Source: Acetomicrobium hydrogeniformans (GTDB lineage: Bacteria; Synergistota; Synergistia; Synergistales; JAFGMB01). From it: a stretch of 64,000 nucleotides of DNA. The notes beneath the pieces were generated by a model that did no database searches, was not told where the DNA came from, and saw nothing but the letters and a program-made list of their open reading frames with translations. The position numbers were made by a program, and so were the translations under genes. The DNA is taken from assembly GCA_016841745.1 (NCBI GenBank), contig JAENYO010000003.1, positions 248,001 through 312,000 of the forward strand, written 5' to 3'. Positions 44,404 through 56,996 of the stretch are shown here, one piece after another (position 1 is the first letter of the stretch; every line of letters begins with the position of its first letter).

Positions 44404-45660
44404 ATGAAGAACAGTTGCAGCAGGATCCCTTTTCGACATTCCATAGCTTTTATGTTTTTTGCATTTGTGTTAGTCGCATTTATTGCTTTTACGGGTACAG
44501 CGAAAGCGGTTTATGCCCAGACCTTGACGGTTACCACTACCAGTGACGATGTGTTGGATACAGGTTCTTTGCGTTACTCTATCGAGAATGCTACAAGCCA
44601 GGACATAATAAGCTTTGATCTTGATTATCCGGCAACCATAATACTGGCAGAACAGCTCAGCATCGATCATGGACTTACCGTTCAGGGTCCTGTTGCGGAC
44701 CTGCTTAAGGTGAGCGGTAATGATACATGCAGGGTCTTTTATGTTGATACGGCTGAGTCTGTTGACATATCCGGTATCTCTATAGTGAGCGGGGATGCAG
44801 ATAATGGTGGTGGAATGTACAATCTCAATTCCAGCCTCACCTTGACGGACTGTACCTTCAGTGGAAACAGTGGATCCTATGGAGGTGGATTGTACAATAA
44901 TTATTCCGATCCAATAGTTAGGAACTGCACCTTCACCTCGAACAGTGCAGATGATGGAGGCGGAATGTACAATTCCAATTCCAGTCCCACAGTGACCAAC
45001 TGCATATTCTGGGATAGTACAGGTGAAGAGATATATAACTATCCAGACGTTACTTACCCAAGCACGCCTAACCTCAGCTTCTGTGTTGTCCAGAGCAATG
45101 ATGTTGGTGATGGTACTATCTCCAGCGATATTACTTCGGCAGATCCAGAACTTGAATCTTTGGCAGACAATGGAGGACCGACCTGGACATGTGCTCTGAG
45201 AGAAGGAAGTTCTGCCATAGATGCAGGAATTACAATTGCCGAGATCAACAAAGATCAGCGTGGAGCTCCCAGACCTTATGGCAGTAGTTTCGACATTGGA
45301 GCCTGTGAATCCGGACTTGAGGTCTATGTTATAACTGCCACCTGCTCCGATGGAGGTACTATTTCCCCGCTAGAAGCACATACTCTGGCTGGAGTAGAGG
45401 ATGAAGTCTTTTACCTGTTGCCTGATGAAGGTTACAAGATCGAGGCAGTCTATGTAGATGATGAAGCCGTTTCCTACGATGAAGCCTGCAACACCTATAC
45501 TTTCCAGAATGTAACCGGAAACCATGTAATAAGTGTTGATTTTAGCCCCAGAGCCGATAACAATGATAGAGACACAGATGGCTGCAACATATCGCTACTG
45601 CCAGGTATTGGACTGCTGCTGATGTTACCATTGATCTTCCTGTCAAGAAAGATGAAGTAG
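44404..45660 (+). CDS. Secreted repeat protein with Synergist-CTERM-type sorting signal (surface protein 2)
   Basis: 418 residues, a shorter paralogue of surface protein 1. Signal peptide around FAFVLVAFIAFTGTAKAVYA. Beta-helix repeats (SSLTLTDCTFSGNSGSYGGG, SNSADDGGGMYNSNSSPTVT) are followed by the closing GPTWTCALREGSSAIDAG, one Gly-rich module (YVITATCSDGGTISPLEAHT) and a short linker. The end is DTDGCNIS, a hydrophobic helix (LLPGIGLLLMLPLIFL) and SRKMK. The acidic domain of surface protein 1 is missing. Likely surface-anchored. Confidence 0.88.
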   Translation: MKNSCSRIPFRHSIAFMFFAFVLVAFIAFTGTAKAVYAQTLTVTTTSDDVLDTGSLRYSIENATSQDIISFDLDYPATIILAEQLSIDHGLTVQGPVADLLKVSGNDTCRVFYVDTAESVDISGISIVSGDADNGGGMYNLNSSLTLTDCTFSGNSGSYGGGLYNNYSDPIVRNCTFTSNSADDGGGMYNSNSSPTVTNCIFWDSTGEEIYNYPDVTYPSTPNLSFCVVQSNDVGDGTISSDITSADPELESLADNGGPTWTCALREGSSAIDAGITIAEINKDQRGAPRPYGSSFDIGACESGLEVYVITATCSDGGTISPLEAHTLAGVEDEVFYLLPDEGYKIEAVYVDDEAVSYDEACNTYTFQNVTGNHVISVDFSPRADNNDRDTDGCNISLLPGIGLLLMLPLIFLSRKMK

Positions 45661-49144: not shown

Positions 49145-49555
49145 ATGTTTCAAAAAGCTGGCAAAGCTCTCCTCCTTTTTCTATTGTTTATGGTGATTTT
49201 TATGACACCTGTAATTTCTGAAGCTGCAGTTCCAAAGATCAAAGTAGATGACCTCAACAGTATCTGGGGAGAAGAAAATCTTGTTATTATCGATGTCCAG
49301 AAACAAAGCGACTGGGAAGAGAGCGATAAAATGATCCAGGGTGCTGTCAGGGAGGATCCGGAGAAGACGGCAGAATGGATGAAAAATTATCCCAGGGATA
49401 AGAAATTTGTTCTTTATTGTGCCTGACCATTTGAATTTACCAGCGCCAGGGTGGCGCAGACAATGATTCAGGCGGGGTATGAGAATGTACAGGCCCTGCA
49501 GGGAGGCTGGAAAGCCTGGGTCAAAGCCGGTTATCCGGTACAGCCCAGAGAATGA
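49145..49555 (+). CDS. Rhodanese-like protein, probable selenoprotein (UGA at codon 94), copy 1
   Basis: 136 residues if the TGA at 49424-49426 is read as selenocysteine. ATG 49145 follows GGAGGTGAT. Signal peptide ALLLFLLFMVIFMTPVISEA. The rhodanese fold runs from KIKVDDLNSIWGEENLVIID to the active-site strand KFVLYCA, then the TGA, then PFEFTSARVAQTMIQAGYEN and VQALQGGWKAWVKAGYP, an intact C-terminal half in the same frame. The TGA is two codons after canonical Cys92, giving Cys-Ala-Sec-Pro where related rhodaneses, as I recall, have Cys-x-Cys-Pro. A hairpin at 49443-49457 is a candidate SECIS. Exported; probably a sulfur-transfer or redox role. Confidence 0.82.
49443..49457 (+). promoter_or_regulatory. 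Candidate bacterial SECIS hairpin, copy 1
   Basis: GCGCC, loop AGGGT, GGCGC. The stem begins 17 bases after the UGA and has a G-rich apical loop, in the position expected for bacterial SelB-binding elements. The same hairpin at the same spacing follows the second gene. Confidence 0.6.
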
Positions 49556-49590
49556 TCATTCTATAAAATGCTTAATGTAACGATCCTTTA

Positions 49591-49625
49591 AAAGACAGCC
49601 TGAAGAGCGGGCTGTCTTTTCTTTT
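49591..49625 (+). terminator. Rho-independent terminator of rhodanese gene 1
   Basis: AAAGACAGCC / GGCTGTCTTTT stem followed by CTTTT. It lies beyond the predicted full-length stop, not after the TGA, which supports read-through. Confidence 0.88.
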
Positions 49626-49793
49626 AAGATCAATAGCTATTATTAAATCCAGGAGTTAAATCATGACTTGTTCAATTTCAAATTGAAATTTGTTATTCCT
49701 GTAGATCTGGATAAATAACCCTGGGAGAATATTTATATATATTTAAACATGTATTATGTTAAAATGTGAAAATACATGAAAGGAGGTGGCATT

Positions 49794-50201
49794 TTGTTTC
49801 TGAGAATTAGAAAACCCCTGTTCCTGGTTCTATTGTTTTCGCTCTTTCTGTTCATTCCCATGGTCGCAGAAGCTGTTCCAAAGATCACTGTAGATGAACT
49901 CAACAGTGTTTTGGGAACAGAAGATCTTGTGGTAATTGATTCAAGGAAGACCAGTGACTGGAATAAGAGTGATGAGATGATCGAGGGTTCCTTCAGAGGA
50001 GATCCCTGGAAGACGGAAGAATGGATTCCAGATTACCCTAAGGAGAAGAGATACGTTATCTATTGTGCCTGACCCTTCGAATTCACAAGCGCCAGTGTGG
50101 CGCGAAAAATGATCGATGCAGATTTCGAAAATATTCAGGTTCTCAAGGGAGGCTGGAAAGCCTGGATTAAGGCGGGTTATCCGGTACAACCAAAAGAGTA
50201 G
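49794..50201 (+). CDS. Rhodanese-like protein, probable selenoprotein (UGA at codon 93), copy 2
   Basis: 135 residues if the TGA at 50070-50072 is selenocysteine. The TTG at 49794 has AGGAGGTGG 5 bases upstream; ATG 49776 overlaps that site. Signal peptide LFLVLLFSLFLFIPMVAEA. Same architecture as copy 1: KITVDELNSVLGTEDLVVID, YVIYCA, TGA, PFEFTSASVARKMIDADFEN, VQ-type IQVLKGGWKAWIKAGYP, ending at TAG 50199-50201. The two proteins differ at many positions yet keep the TGA, the flanking residues and the downstream frame, so the TGA is under selection and not a decay mutation. Confidence 0.82.
50089..50103 (+). promoter_or_regulatory. Candidate bacterial SECIS hairpin, copy 2
   Basis: GCGCC, loop AGTGT, GGCGC, starting 17 bases after the UGA as in copy 1. 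The loop differs in one base. Part of the conservation could reflect the encoded residues TSA(R/S)VA. Confidence 0.58.
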
Positions 50202-50236: not shown

Positions 50237-50270
50237 GAAGACAGCCCTGGAGTGGGCTGTCTTCTTTTTT
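50237..50270 (+). terminator. Rho-independent terminator of rhodanese gene 2
   Basis: GAAGACAGCCC / GGGCTGTCTTC stem, then TTTTTT, after the predicted full-length stop. Confidence 0.92.
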
Positions 50271-50393: not shown

Positions 50394-51515
50394 ATGCCTT
50401 CCAGAAAAATATGTTATATAACCATTATTGCTTTAATTTTACTGATCTCTTTTTCAGGAGTTCTCTCAGCAGAGAATGGTTTAGCCGTAAAGGATGCTTT
50501 TGGCGATGTTCTGAGTCCTGATGGAAAAATCGAAAAAGTGCTATGTTCCGGCCCCGGTTGCCTCAGATTGCTTACCTATCTTCAGGCTCACCAGACGATT
50601 TCGGGAGTGGAGGATATCGAGAGAAGAAACATCCCGATAGACCCAAGACCTTATTTTCTTGCAAATCCCTTTTTCAGAAATCTGCCCCAGATAGGTGAAT
50701 TTCGAGGTCTTACAAGGTCTGAGCTTGTAGTTTCACTTGAGTCTCTTCCGCAGGTTATTTTCAAAACCTATCCTGAGATGGGAACTCCGGCAGGAAAGCT
50801 TCAGGAATCTACTGGTATACCCGTTATCCCTCTTGAATACGGGAACCTCTTCAGCCAGAAAGAGAAACTCTATAGCTCTATCCGTATCATGGGACAGATC
50901 ATGGATAAAAAAGACAGGGCGGAAGCCATCATTGATTTTATTGAAGGTGCCATAGAGGATCTTTCCCGAAGGATGGAGGGGATTGAGGAAGTTTCCAGAA
51001 AAACCGCCTATGTGGGAGGTATCGCCTACAAGGGGCCCCATGGCCTTCGCTCGACGGAAAAGGGATATCCTCCTTTTATGTTCACGGGAACCAGGAATGT
51101 GGCTTTCGCGGGAGAGGAACTTAAAGGTTCATCTTCTCAAGCAGATGTTTCGAGGGAAAAGATCCTGGAATGGGATCCTGAGGTCATATTTGTCGATCTT
51201 TCCACCCTCAATGCTCCAGAAGGTGCAAGTGCCCTTGCTGAACTAATACAGGATCCCCTCTGGCAGGATCTCCGGGCTGTAAAGTCAGGAGAGGTTTATG
51301 GAGTGCTTCCCTATAACTGGTATTCCCAGAATTTCGGGAGTATATTGGCAAATGCTTATTTTATAGGTAAAATACTTTATCCTGATCGTTTTCAGGATGT
51401 TGATCCGGAAGTAAAGGCTGATGAGATATTCCGATTCCTTGTGGACAGGGACGTGTTCCATGTTATGAAGGATTCCTTCAAGGAAATGGCCTTCGAGAGG
51501 TTGGAGCTGAAATGA
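50394..51515 (+). CDS. ABC transporter substrate-binding protein (iron-siderophore/cobalamin type)
   Basis: 373 residues from the ATG at 50394, which has GAGGTGAT upstream. Signal peptide ICYITIIALILLISFSGVLS. The mature protein begins LAVKDAFGDVLSPDGKIEKV and has the type-III binding-protein layout of two lobes joined by a long helix (near 165-195). SELVVSLESLPQVIFKTYPE and EVIFVDLSTL are typical of FhuD/BtuF-like proteins. Periplasmic. The ligand could be a metal chelate, heme or corrinoid; the FmdE gene after the ATPase hints at a metal-related substrate. Confidence 0.88.
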   Translation: MPSRKICYITIIALILLISFSGVLSAENGLAVKDAFGDVLSPDGKIEKVLCSGPGCLRLLTYLQAHQTISGVEDIERRNIPIDPRPYFLANPFFRNLPQIGEFRGLTRSELVVSLESLPQVIFKTYPEMGTPAGKLQESTGIPVIPLEYGNLFSQKEKLYSSIRIMGQIMDKKDRAEAIIDFIEGAIEDLSRRMEGIEEVSRKTAYVGGIAYKGPHGLRSTEKGYPPFMFTGTRNVAFAGEELKGSSSQADVSREKILEWDPEVIFVDLSTLNAPEGASALAELIQDPLWQDLRAVKSGEVYGVLPYNWYSQNFGSILANAYFIGKILYPDRFQDVDPEVKADEIFRFLVDRDVFHVMKDSFKEMAFERLELK

Positions 51516-51518
51516 TAT

Positions 51519-52586
51519 ATGCATATTGAACGGGGCCATGATCCGGCTGCTTACAGAGTATATATAGGAAGAAAAAAAACCTTTCTCTTTCTGGGTGGAG
51601 CAATGCTATTCCTGCTGTTTATACTGTCCCTTTCACTTGGACCGGTAAGACTTTCTCCATCCCATGTCCTCAGAACACTTATGGGTCAGAATGTTTCCAG
51701 ACAAGCCAGTCTTATCATATGGAAGATACGTCTTCCCCAGGCTTTAGCTGCGATAGCTGCAGGGATAGGATTGGCCGTATCTGGAGGAGTAATGCAGTCT
51801 CTTTTAAGAAATCCGCTGGGATCTCCTTTTACCCTGGGAATCTCCCAGGCTGCTGCCTTTGGTGCAGCTTTTTCAGTTAGTTTTCTTGGTACAGGAGGAA
51901 TGCAGAGCACTCTTGCCAATGCAGTAACCATAAATAACTTTCCCATTACTATCCTTTTTGCTTTTGGATCAAGCATGATAGCCACCATGGTGATCCTTGC
52001 CCTTTCAGGGCGCAGGAACATCTCTCCCGAGTCTATAGTGCTTTCGGGAGTGGCAGTGGGATCTATATTCACTGCAGGGACCCTTATTCTTCAGTTCTTT
52101 GCTGATGATACCGAACTTGCGGCCATGGTATTCTGGACATTCGGCGATCTGGCCAGGGCTGGCTGGTCCCAGGTGATCTTCCTTACCGCTATATCCATTT
52201 TATCAATGTTTTTCTTTCTCTGGAGATCCTGGGATTACAATGCAATTGACGCAGGAGAAGAATCTGCTCTTTCCCTTGGTGTTAAAGTTAAGAAGGTGCG
52301 TCTTTTCGGAATGTTCATGGCATCACTGATAACTGCTCTTATTGTTTCCTGCGTGGGTGTGATAGGTTTTGTGGGTCTTGTGGCTCCTCATATGGTTAGA
52401 AGGATATTAGGAGATGACCACAGGTTCCTCATTCCGGGAGCTGCCATAGTCGGGTCCCTCCTTCTCCTTGGTGCGGACCTTGCTGCAAGAACCATTATCG
52501 CTCCCCGAATACTTCCTGTATCTGTCCTTACATCCTTCCTTGGTGCTCCTCTTTTCATTTACCTCATAATAAGGGGGAACAGGTGA
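51519..52586 (+). CDS. FecCD-family ABC transporter permease
   Basis: 355 residues with about ten membrane helices, as in BtuC and FhuB halves. Diagnostic stretches: IRLPQALAAIAAGIGLAVSG, GVMQSLLRNPLGSPFTLGIS, and the ATPase-contact region CVGVIGFVGLVAPHMVRRIL with GDDHRFLIPGAAIVGSLLLL. It starts 3 bases after the binding-protein stop and overlaps the ATPase gene. Confidence 0.95.
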   Translation: MHIERGHDPAAYRVYIGRKKTFLFLGGAMLFLLFILSLSLGPVRLSPSHVLRTLMGQNVSRQASLIIWKIRLPQALAAIAAGIGLAVSGGVMQSLLRNPLGSPFTLGISQAAAFGAAFSVSFLGTGGMQSTLANAVTINNFPITILFAFGSSMIATMVILALSGRRNISPESIVLSGVAVGSIFTAGTLILQFFADDTELAAMVFWTFGDLARAGWSQVIFLTAISILSMFFFLWRSWDYNAIDAGEESALSLGVKVKKVRLFGMFMASLITALIVSCVGVIGFVGLVAPHMVRRILGDDHRFLIPGAAIVGSLLLLGADLAARTIIAPRILPVSVLTSFLGAPLFIYLIIRGNR

Positions 52587-53428
52587 TGATACTGCAGGTA
52601 AGGGGAATGACCTTCGAGTATCCTTCCAGACCGGTGTTGAATGATATTACCCTTAGCGTTTCTCCGGGGGAGACCGTTATGATAATGGGACCAAACGGAG
52701 TAGGCAAGTCAACTCTCCTCAAATGTATGAACGGGATCCTTACTCCCGGTGCAGGAAGAATGCTCCTTGATGAAAAGGATCTTTTATTTCTTTCACAAAG
52801 GGATATCGCAAGGTTGGTGGGCTATGTTCCACAGAGGACCCAGCCTGGAAGGGTCTCCGTTTTTGATGCCATCCTTCTAGGCCGAAGGCCACATATGGGT
52901 TGGCATGTTGGGGAAAATGACCTGAAAGCAGTTGATGGAATAATACAGACCCTTCATCTGGAAGACCTTGCCCTTCGAAGCCTGGATGAAATGAGCGGAG
53001 GGGAGATCCAGAAGGTTATGATAGCAAGGGCTCTGGCCCAGGAACCAGGACTTCTTCTTCTCGATGAACCTACAAGCAGCCTGGATTTACGGAACCAGGT
53101 TGAGGTAATGGAGATCCTGGACCATGTAGTAAGAGGTCATGGGCTCGCAGCTCTTGTTACAATGCATGACCTGAACACTGCCTTCCGTTTTGGCCACCGT
53201 TTTCTGTTCCTTAAAGATGGAAGTATAGCCTATTCATTGAGCAGAGAAGAGATAACCGAATCGGTCATTGAAGATATATATGGTCTCAAGGTGGAGCTTG
53301 CCTTTGTGGGAAATGTACCGGTGGTTATCCCCTCTGTGGTTCTGGAAGGCCCCCTTGCGGGAGAGGATTTTCACGATCATTCAAGTGGGGAATATCCTGC
53401 TTCTCTTGTCAGGAAAAACGCATCATAA
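52583..53428 (+). CDS. ABC transporter ATP-binding protein (FecE/BtuD-like)
   Basis: 281 residues. Walker A GPNGVGKSTLLKCMNG (near 36), the FecE-type VGYVPQRTQPGRVSVFDAIL, signature MSGGEIQKVMIARALAQEPG, Walker B LLLLDEPTSSLDLRNQ and the switch TMHDLNTAFRFGHR. The last 30 residues contain several His (DFHDHSSGEYP), a possible metal-sensing tail. GTG at 52583 or ATG at 52586 could start it. It completes a three-gene importer operon with FmdE 38 bases downstream. Confidence 0.94.
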   Translation: MMILQVRGMTFEYPSRPVLNDITLSVSPGETVMIMGPNGVGKSTLLKCMNGILTPGAGRMLLDEKDLLFLSQRDIARLVGYVPQRTQPGRVSVFDAILLGRRPHMGWHVGENDLKAVDGIIQTLHLEDLALRSLDEMSGGEIQKVMIARALAQEPGLLLLDEPTSSLDLRNQVEVMEILDHVVRGHGLAALVTMHDLNTAFRFGHRFLFLKDGSIAYSLSREEITESVIEDIYGLKVELAFVGNVPVVIPSVVLEGPLAGEDFHDHSSGEYPASLVRKNAS

Positions 53429-53466: not shown

Positions 53467-54078
53467 ATGTCTGAACCCATAATTACCGAAGGACTTATCC
53501 ATAAATGTATCGATTTTCACGGCCACTGGTGTCCGGGACTTGCCACTGGTATTCGGGCAGCTGAATATGCTTTGCTGGAATTCGGCCACAGCTCGGATGA
53601 AGAGATAGTTACTGTAGCCGAGACAGACTTCTGCGGAGTGGATGCCATCCAGTTCCTCACAGGATGTACCCTGGGAAAGGGCAATCTTGTGATAAGGGAA
53701 TTCGGAAAGGTGGCTTTCAGCTTTTATCGCCGAAGTGATGGAAAAGCCCAAAGGATAGTACTCAGACCTGCAGAAGAAACAGACCGGGAAGAGTATAGGG
53801 AACTGCAGAAGAAAAGTAACGAAGGTTCCCTCTCTGAAGATGAGTGGACCCGATTTCTGGAACTCAGGGATGAACATTCCGGTATGATACTGGGGACAGA
53901 TCTGGAAGACCTGTTCGAGGTCAAGGAAGTTCAGTTCCCTGTTCCTGAATATGCTCCCATGAAAAAAAGCGTTCTCTGTGAAGACTGTGGAGAAATGGTG
54001 ATGGAGACAAAGGCAAGGTTTTCCGGGGGACGGGTTCTCTGCATTACCTGTTTTGATAAGTTGAATCCTCGTTTCTGA
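53467..54078 (+). CDS. FmdE-family protein with C-terminal zinc ribbon
   Basis: 203 residues. The FmdE domain (about 1-130) starts KCIDFHGHWCPGLATGIRAA, with the conserved His/Cys pair, and has AETDFCGVDAIQFLTGCTLG and GKGNLVIREFGKVAF. The C-terminal CEDCGEMVMETKARFSGGRV followed by LCITC is a TraR/DksA-like zinc ribbon. FmdE proteins are named after a subunit encoded with molybdenum formylmethanofuran dehydrogenase, but here the gene follows a metal-chelate-type ABC importer, so a metal-handling role is more likely. GGAGG precedes the ATG. Confidence 0.88.
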   Translation: MSEPIITEGLIHKCIDFHGHWCPGLATGIRAAEYALLEFGHSSDEEIVTVAETDFCGVDAIQFLTGCTLGKGNLVIREFGKVAFSFYRRSDGKAQRIVLRPAEETDREEYRELQKKSNEGSLSEDEWTRFLELRDEHSGMILGTDLEDLFEVKEVQFPVPEYAPMKKSVLCEDCGEMVMETKARFSGGRVLCITCFDKLNPRF

Positions 54079-54782: not shown

Positions 54783-56996
54783 ATGAGAAGAACCTTACTT
54801 GCACTTGGCATTTTTGCGCTTTTTTTGAGTTTCTGTAGTTACGGTTATGCTGCTGACTTTCCTGTAACGGACGCGGCAGGGTTCCAGACAGCCCTTACCA
54901 CTGCTGAGTCTAATGGTGAAAATGACACGATTACCCTGTCGGAAGGAACATACCAAACTGGAGGAGTCACCTTTACTTACTCGGCAGGTTCGCCAGATGA
55001 AGGCAGCCTCACTATCACAGGAACTGGAGAGGTTATCCTGGATGCAGAGGGAACAGATCGAGTATTAGATATCTCTTCTTCCTATATGACAGATATCACA
55101 CTCCAGAACCTCACCGTACAGAGCGGAGATATCGTCGGAAATGGCGCAGGAGCATACATATATGTGGATGCAGGTAATATTAACGTAGTGGAATGCTCCT
55201 TCAAAGATAATTCAACTGATGGATCTTACTATGGAGGAGGACTTTATGCCTACATAAGTGAGAACGGTAGTATCGATGTCACAAGCTGTGATTTCACTGG
55301 AAATTATGCATATTACTATGGCGGAGGCGTTTACGCATATATCTCGGAAACCGGCGACATTACACTTCAGGGTAACACTTTCACATTAAACTCTGCAGAT
55401 CAATATGGAGGCGCAGCCTATGTAGAAGCATACGTGGGAGATATTGATATCATAGGTAACACCTTCACCAGTAACGATGTTGCCACATATTCTGGTGGGG
55501 CATTATATATCTACCAGGACTACTCCGGCACAATCACACTGGACGACAACCTTTTTAATGGCAACACGGCTGCAAGTTATGGCGGTGCTCTTTACTTGAA
55601 TCCTTGCTGTGGAAATGCAGTTAACTGCCTGAACAACAGCTTCGAAAACAACCATTCCGATTCAGACGGCGGTGCCTTTTACCTGGACGGTGATTACAAT
55701 ACCAACGCATACCTTTTCAACAATTCCTTCAGTGGCAATACATGTGGTTCAGACGGAGGAGGCGCCTTCTTAGAAATGGAGTACGGAGACCTGCTTACCA
55801 TGGTATCCAACGATTTCTACCAGAATATAGCTGATTCTTACGGTGGTGGGGCATATCTGTATGTATATGATGACGGAAGCTCATTTACTGTAGACAACTG
55901 CTCCTTCCGCGAAAACGAATCTTATTATGATGGTGGTGGATTGTGTTACACCGATGGCGACTATAGAGCTGCTGAAACAATAACCCTGACTAATTCCCTT
56001 TTCCAGAACAACATATCCACCAATGGGGAAGGTGGCGGAGCATATCTTTATCTGGAGTACGGCGGTGCTCACTGTCTTGTGTCAGGAAATGAATTCTCCA
56101 GTAACGATTCATATGGAGACGGAGGAGGTCTGTATACATACGTATATGAGGGCAATCTTTACGTAGGTAACAACACCTTCGACCAGAATGTTACCTCTGA
56201 CGATGGAGGCGGAGCATATATCGAGTCTGAATATGGTGATCTTATGGTGGAAAACTGCTCCTTCACCAACAACTCATGTGGATACAACGGTGGCGGAGTC
56301 TATGCTTACCCCTATTACGGTGATTTCATCTTCAGAAACAACCTCATAACAGGGAACACATCTGCCTACGACGGAGGCGGAGCATATCTCTATCCGGAAT
56401 ATGTAAGATACGCTGATATAGTGAACAATACCATCACTGGAAATACCGTCTCTGACGAAGGATATTGCGGAGGAGGCATCTACGTCTACTGCGGTGATGA
56501 TAATACCGTTTACTCTCTTTACAACAATATTATCTGGAACAACAGTGCATCCGACGGCAATGACATTTATCTCTACGACAGCTCCTACCTGAACTACTTC
56601 TACGTCTACGACAACGACTTCTCAGTTCTGTCCACAGACTTTTCAGGAGGAGACAGCTACCTCTATGAATCTTCCAATATGGACGTTGATCCAATGTTCG
56701 TTTCCGCTTCTGATTTCCATCTCCAGGCAGACTCTCCTGTAATAGATGAAGGAGACTCCCTTGCACCATCCCTTCCTGAAATAGACCTGGATGCTAACGC
56801 CAGGGTGTATGGAAACAGCGTGGACATGGGAGCCTATGAGTACGGATCTGGCCCAATAGGAGACGATGATGATGACGATGACGATGATATAACTACTTCG
56901 ACTTCCAGCAGTGGCGGCGGATGTAATACCGGAGCCTTTGTACCTTCATTACTTCTGCTTCTCGCACCGCTGTTCATACTCGCCAGAAAAAGGTAG
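54783..56996 (+). CDS. Large secreted beta-helix protein with Synergist-CTERM-type sorting signal (surface protein 3)
   Basis: 737 residues. Signal peptide LLALGIFALFLSFCSYGYAA. Most of the protein (about 90-600) is a right-handed parallel beta-helix with over a dozen repeats of the pattern N-x-F/S-x-x-N-x(5-8)-Y-GGG-AY, each rich in Tyr, Gly, Asp and Asn. A closing choice-of-anchor-like segment (LQADSPVIDEGDSLAPSLPE, ARVYGNSVDMGAYEYGS) follows. Then come an Asp-rich linker of nine Asp residues, SSSGGGCNTGAF, a hydrophobic helix and ARKR. It is acidic and probably surface-displayed, related to proteins 1 and 2 in plan but not in repeat sequence. Confidence 0.88.
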   Translation: MRRTLLALGIFALFLSFCSYGYAADFPVTDAAGFQTALTTAESNGENDTITLSEGTYQTGGVTFTYSAGSPDEGSLTITGTGEVILDAEGTDRVLDISSSYMTDITLQNLTVQSGDIVGNGAGAYIYVDAGNINVVECSFKDNSTDGSYYGGGLYAYISENGSIDVTSCDFTGNYAYYYGGGVYAYISETGDITLQGNTFTLNSADQYGGAAYVEAYVGDIDIIGNTFTSNDVATYSGGALYIYQDYSGTITLDDNLFNGNTAASYGGALYLNPCCGNAVNCLNNSFENNHSDSDGGAFYLDGDYNTNAYLFNNSFSGNTCGSDGGGAFLEMEYGDLLTMVSNDFYQNIADSYGGGAYLYVYDDGSSFTVDNCSFRENESYYDGGGLCYTDGDYRAAETITLTNSLFQNNISTNGEGGGAYLYLEYGGAHCLVSGNEFSSNDSYGDGGGLYTYVYEGNLYVGNNTFDQNVTSDDGGGAYIESEYGDLMVENCSFTNNSCGYNGGGVYAYPYYGDFIFRNNLITGNTSAYDGGGAYLYPEYVRYADIVNNTITGNTVSDEGYCGGGIYVYCGDDNTVYSLYNNIIWNNSASDGNDIYLYDSSYLNYFYVYDNDFSVLSTDFSGGDSYLYESSNMDVDPMFVSASDFHLQADSPVIDEGDSLAPSLPEIDLDANARVYGNSVDMGAYEYGSGPIGDDDDDDDDDITTSTSSSGGGCNTGAFVPSLLLLLAPLFILARKR

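Follow-up and report, generated by a model that had tools for sequence, protein, structure and literature searches.

Tandem rhodanese-like genes of a Synergistota bacterium as probable exported Cys-x-Sec selenoproteins, with candidate Sec-x-Sec relatives

The tandem gene pair and its family

Thiosulfate sulfurtransferases of the GlpE/PspE type have a six-residue CxxGxS active-site loop, with one Cys and no Sec. The selenoprotein rhodanese motifs given in Table 1 of a 2026 review (PMC13188914) are CxU, UxxS, UxxG, and UxxxxU, with no UxU among them. The CxU form, 'Rhodanese-like domain-containing protein form 3', corresponds to NF041203 (rhodanese_LYCAU), and its entry is credited to Zhang and Gladyshev 2005 (reference 13 of PMC13188914). 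No biochemical characterisation of this NF041203/CxU family was found in the literature. Two tandem genes in a 64-kb stretch of DNA (the window) from a Synergistota genome are new members of this known family of predicted selenoproteins, and they very likely encode exported rhodanese-fold proteins in which an internal UGA is read as Sec, as judged from sequence. The original prediction had called them probable selenoproteins, and the Sec machinery, the Cys-containing homologues, the covariation of the SECIS hairpins, and the selection acting after the UGA all favor that call, which is correct but not new because the CxU family had already been catalogued.

Gene 1 (49145..49555, + strand) runs from an ATG at 49145 to a TGA stop at 49553-49555 and gives a product of 136 aa when the UGA at codon 94 (49424..49426, + strand) is read through, yielding the predicted order Cys92-Ala93-Sec94-Pro95. 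Its tandem paralogue, gene 2 (49794..50201, + strand), ends at a TAG stop (50199-50201) and encodes 135 aa counted from TTG; this TTG at 49794, with AAGGAGGTGG directly 5' of it, is most likely the start, the in-frame alternative being an ATG at 49776. The in-frame UGA of gene 2 (50070..50072, + strand) is codon 93, the predicted Sec93. Each gene contains one in-frame TGA, located two codons 3' of the active-site Cys within the shared motif Y-C-A-UGA-P-F-E-F-T-S-A, and both products end in GGWKAW[VI]KAGYPVQP. Thus, the codon positions originally proposed for the two TGAs agree with the coordinates, and the frame does continue through PFEFTSA and GGWKAW to an ordinary stop. The terminators likewise lie after the distal stops, as had been claimed: a terminator-like hairpin read by eye at 49590..49620 (+ strand; AAAAGACAGCC...GGCTGTCTTTT), which the scanner missed because its loop is 9 nt, follows gene 1, and an intrinsic terminator detected by the hairpin scan at 50237..50264 (+ strand) follows gene 2. 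The mature gene 1 protein would contain one Cys and one Sec as its only thiol/selenol residues. Export of both products is suggested by a hydrophobic N-terminal stretch and the plausible cleavage site behind it.

The two copies share 65% identity in their mature parts (60% over the full alignment), bearing out the view that they have diverged yet keep the TGA and its flanks, and neither copy carries any disruption other than the UGA. Purifying selection acts on the sequence after the UGA, where a comparison of gene 1 with gene 2 gives dN of about 0.14 and dS of about 1.59, indicating that translation continues past the UGA. An unbiased scan of all six frames of the 64 kb, which required at least 50 and at least 35 open codons on the two sides of a TGA together with a bSECIS-like hairpin, gave four matches, and of these just the two in genes 1 and 2 lay in coding sequence that could be recognised; the combination of UGA and hairpin in these genes is more than chance. 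The duplicated pair had also been described as unusual; a tandem pair is indeed present, but multiple copies are not unique to this genome, since two UTU (predicted Sec-Thr-Sec) copies occur in G260 and three CxU copies in G285.

Both proteins score above the NF041203 cut-off of 115 bits (158.5 bits for gene 1 and 147.7 bits for gene 2) and above the PF00581 gathering threshold of 22.2 bits (45.1 and 37.3 bits, respectively), and the Cys-x-Sec or Cys-x-Cys active site that characterizes NF041203 is present in both copies as YCA-UGA-P. Their active-site loop exceeds the classic CxxGxRS loop by two residues (compared with L118 and L119), and as CAUPFEFTS it lacks the Arg of the HCX5R signature of Cdc25 and Acr2 arsenate reductases. 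The rhodanese GG-x-x-AW core and the catalytic Cys are invariant in the alignment. Fold matches to solved rhodaneses were obtained; a single structure model, with a mean pLDDT of 64.5, was too weak for the Cys-Sec geometry to be measured. An orthologue in a second Synergistota genus keeps the UGA, and the homologues that had been proposed as a check carry Cys in the UGA column with a gapless loop, as YCSCP in Burkholderia (L071, YCSCPNEF) and YCACP in Pseudomonas (L072, YCACPHEL). Of two scans of genome contigs for relatives, the first returned none and the second only the second-genus orthologue, and a scan of a viral collection found no relative. In the tree, the forks that bear on the order of the tandem duplication and the split of the two genera are open.

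SECIS hairpins and the decoding of UGA

The predicted SECIS hairpins lie at 49443..49457 (+ strand, GCGCC-AGGGU-GGCGC) in gene 1 and at 50089..50103 (+ strand, GCGCC-AGUGU-GGCGC) in gene 2, as expected from the claim of a GCGCC-loop-GGCGC hairpin 17 bases past each UGA. Each consists of a 5-bp stem that begins 17 nt after the UGA and a 5-nt loop, with the apical loop 21-22 nt past the UGA and a fold energy of -8.7 kcal/mol, and the hairpin check proposed for both genes came out in favor, as the published bSECIS constraints are satisfied and covariation is seen. Stems were compared in a fixed register, defined by a 5-nt loop that opens 21 nt past the UGA, between 26 distinct Sec-type loci from Synergistota and other phyla and 11 non-Sec rhodaneses. 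The stem reached at least 4 bp in all 26 Sec-type loci (at least 5 bp in 25 of them) and in two of the non-Sec rhodaneses, each with 4 bp; the hypergeometric chance of this distribution is about 4e-7 when the relatedness of the loci is ignored. Two loci (L046 and L050) had another best hairpin in the unrestricted fold, with the stem present in the fixed register. A count of base pairs across 11 loci (10 distinct) showed 93% of cells paired, 10 both-side changes, and three pairs with changes on both sides, and none of 500 shuffles and no slide by 1-3 columns came near the real alignment in cells paired or covariation. Synonymous-codon shuffles rarely gave an equally stable hairpin (P = 0.001 for gene 1 and 0.0002 for gene 2), and on this result and the non-Sec controls, the idea that the hairpin merely reflects the codons of a conserved Ala-x-Val-Ala stretch was rejected. 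An Rfam scan of the region gave nothing over the gathering score.

The host genome (3.04 Mb in 15 contigs) contains all four of selA, selB, selC, and selD, whose presence had been proposed as a check. A tRNA-Sec was detected at 77.9 bits, in agreement with ARAGORN; SelB (361.8 bits) adjoins SelA (556 bits), and SelD (327.6 bits) has a UGA of its own in frame (TSG-U-AAK), with a hairpin behind it. UGA also continues to serve as a regular stop in the host, closing 15 of 45 long ORFs in the window and gene 1 itself, which indicates context-dependent recoding rather than a changed genetic code and also means that some product could be truncated. In a broader sample, tRNA-Sec was found in 122 of 188 Synergistota genomes, in all 10 of those that carry a short-family UGA rhodanese (described below), and in all 11 UGA-rhodanese genomes tested outside Synergistota.

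These data bear on two other readings of the UGA. If the UGAs were real stops, the genes would be pseudogenes or encode short products, and the downstream homology would be a relic; although the host also uses UGA as a regular stop codon and gene prediction with table 11 ends both ORFs there, this is very improbable, given that the same UGA codon is found in both copies and in the second genus, that dN is well below dS after it, that neither copy is otherwise disrupted, that the terminators come after the distal stops, that the SECIS hairpin is conserved with compensatory changes, and that the genome has a complete Sec machinery. Decoding of the UGA as a residue other than Sec, by near-cognate read-through or as Trp, appears more improbable still: it would account for an in-frame UGA in an expressed-looking gene, but UGA terminates roughly one in three long ORFs in the window, the corresponding column in homologues is Cys and not Trp, a hairpin stands where SelB needs one, and none of the UGA-rhodanese genomes tested lacks tRNA-Sec. 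Selection, the Cys column, stop usage, and tRNA-Sec co-occurrence thus led to the rejection of a pseudogene, an ordinary stop, and UGA as Trp.

Candidate Sec-x-Sec rhodaneses

The genome that carries genes 1 and 2 also encodes a third rhodanese (G000:C8:512599-512901; L016 1270-1701), in which the catalytic Cys position and the second position are both UGA, giving UGA-GCA-UGA (predicted Sec-Ala-Sec, UAU). A syntenic UGA-GCA-UGA copy in the second genus (G001:C2; L036 1429-1851) keeps both UGAs. In both L016 and L036 the N-terminus is hydrophobic and possibly membrane-anchoring, and RidA-like and pyrimidine genes are nearby. Predicted Sec-Thr-Sec (UTU) rhodaneses with strong SECIS hairpins were found outside Synergistota, namely L103 in G219 and L111 and L120 in G260; G219 is the sole genome sampled from its phylum, which places G260 in another one. 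The gene beside L103 was judged by eye to encode a putative TauE/SafE-like membrane protein. The NF041203 scores are 50.5 bits for L016, which fails the cut-off of 115, 52.5 bits for L036, and 61-92 bits for the UTU forms. Each UxU gene has one hairpin in register, with the first UGA 27 nt from the loop, within the range of 16-37 nt. In the tree, the UAU and UTU groups require at least two changes of state, forced by well-supported branches. Sec-x-Sec rhodaneses, with UGAs six nt apart served by one hairpin, probably occur in at least three phyla and have more than one origin.

A UxU rhodanese was absent from Table 1 of PMC13188914 and from text searches of literature accessible without subscription, and Sec-x-Sec rhodaneses have apparently not been listed so far. 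A scan of a phage collection with the third paralogue found no relative. The family of L016 comprises separate short rhodaneses (VCAY...FYCAU), detected in 10 of 188 Synergistota genomes, and its identifiable members all contain UGA. This short family, apparently cytosolic and below the NF041203 cut-off, is a candidate separate selenoprotein subfamily. Short-family paralogues at L013 (G000:C3:211051-211338) and L034 (G001:C261) have no second chalcogen (YCDS and YCDT, respectively) and no SECIS stem.

Possible function and comparison with known systems

The gene pair probably arose by tandem duplication within a Synergistota bacterium. During translation, SelB with Sec-tRNA-Sec would bind the hairpin after the UGA, so that Sec is inserted instead of termination. 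In the exported protein, Cys92, at the rhodanese catalytic position, may take up sulfane sulfur to form a persulfide, which the Sec94 selenolate would attack, with sulfide released or passed on and a Cys-Sec bridge formed that a thioredoxin-like partner could reduce. From the fold and the motif we infer an envelope role as a persulfide reductase or sulfur relay, including its chemistry, partner, substrate, and export; the chances of the persulfide-reductase role on its own fall somewhat short of even.

The main rival to sulfur transfer is a role in metal or metalloid handling, suggested by the neighboring genes. Downstream of gene 2 lie a FecCD/BtuCDF-type ABC transporter comprising a substrate-binding protein, a permease, and an ATPase (50394..53425, + strand) and a gene for an FmdE-domain protein (FmdE/zinc-finger; 53467..54078, + strand). 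Under this explanation, Cys-x-Sec would bind a soft metal (or metalloid) passing to or from the adjacent transporter and FmdE protein, without sulfur transfer. In the second genus, too, the ABC ATPase and FmdE genes stand next to the LYCAU rhodanese (FmdE at L074), a neighborhood conserved in only two genomes, and neither classic rhodaneses nor Cdc25-type enzymes have such an extended, Arg-free loop. However, no conserved operon context was found for the double-UGA and CxU relatives outside Synergistota, which lack consistent neighbors across phyla, and the GG-x-x-AW rhodanese core and catalytic Cys are invariant, making the metal or metalloid role unlikely. Elsewhere in the window, choice-of-anchor-Q repeat proteins are encoded at 54783-56996, with a Synerg-CTERM sorting signal in line with a Synergistota host, and at 44404-45660.

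Genes 1 and 2 constitute two well-supported additions to a selenoprotein family known from computational prediction. The RNA evidence is unusually clear, with a SECIS hairpin that keeps a fixed register and covaries across phyla. The series Cys-x-Cys, Cys-x-Sec, and Sec-x-Sec on one small fold offers a direct test of the benefit that selenium brings to sulfane-sulfur chemistry. With the UxU genes, one could test the way in which a single SECIS acts on two UGAs so close together.

Among known systems, the GlpE/PspE thiosulfate sulfurtransferases have the rhodanese fold in common with both proteins, E. coli GlpE (1gmx) being among the top fold matches. The UxxS, UxxG, and TsoB UxxxxU forms (PMC13188914, Table 1) also have Sec in the active site of a rhodanese domain, but at a position other than that of CxU. 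Closer are the CxCP rhodaneses, either stand-alone or, as in Pseudomonas WP_003112452.1, fused to a DedA membrane protein, which share the loop length and the YC-x-[Sec/Cys]-P pattern but differ in having Cys for Sec and no stem of at least 4 bp at the same register. NF041203 (rhodanese_LYCAU) is the nearest, with a whole-length match over the cut-off and the same CxU motif in both genes. The pair in the window is distinguished from it by its tandem arrangement, its occurrence in Synergistota, and its position beside the FmdE/ABC cluster, with no difference of kind; the gain beyond this membership is the strong cross-phylum SECIS evidence and the apparently unlisted Sec-x-Sec rhodaneses.
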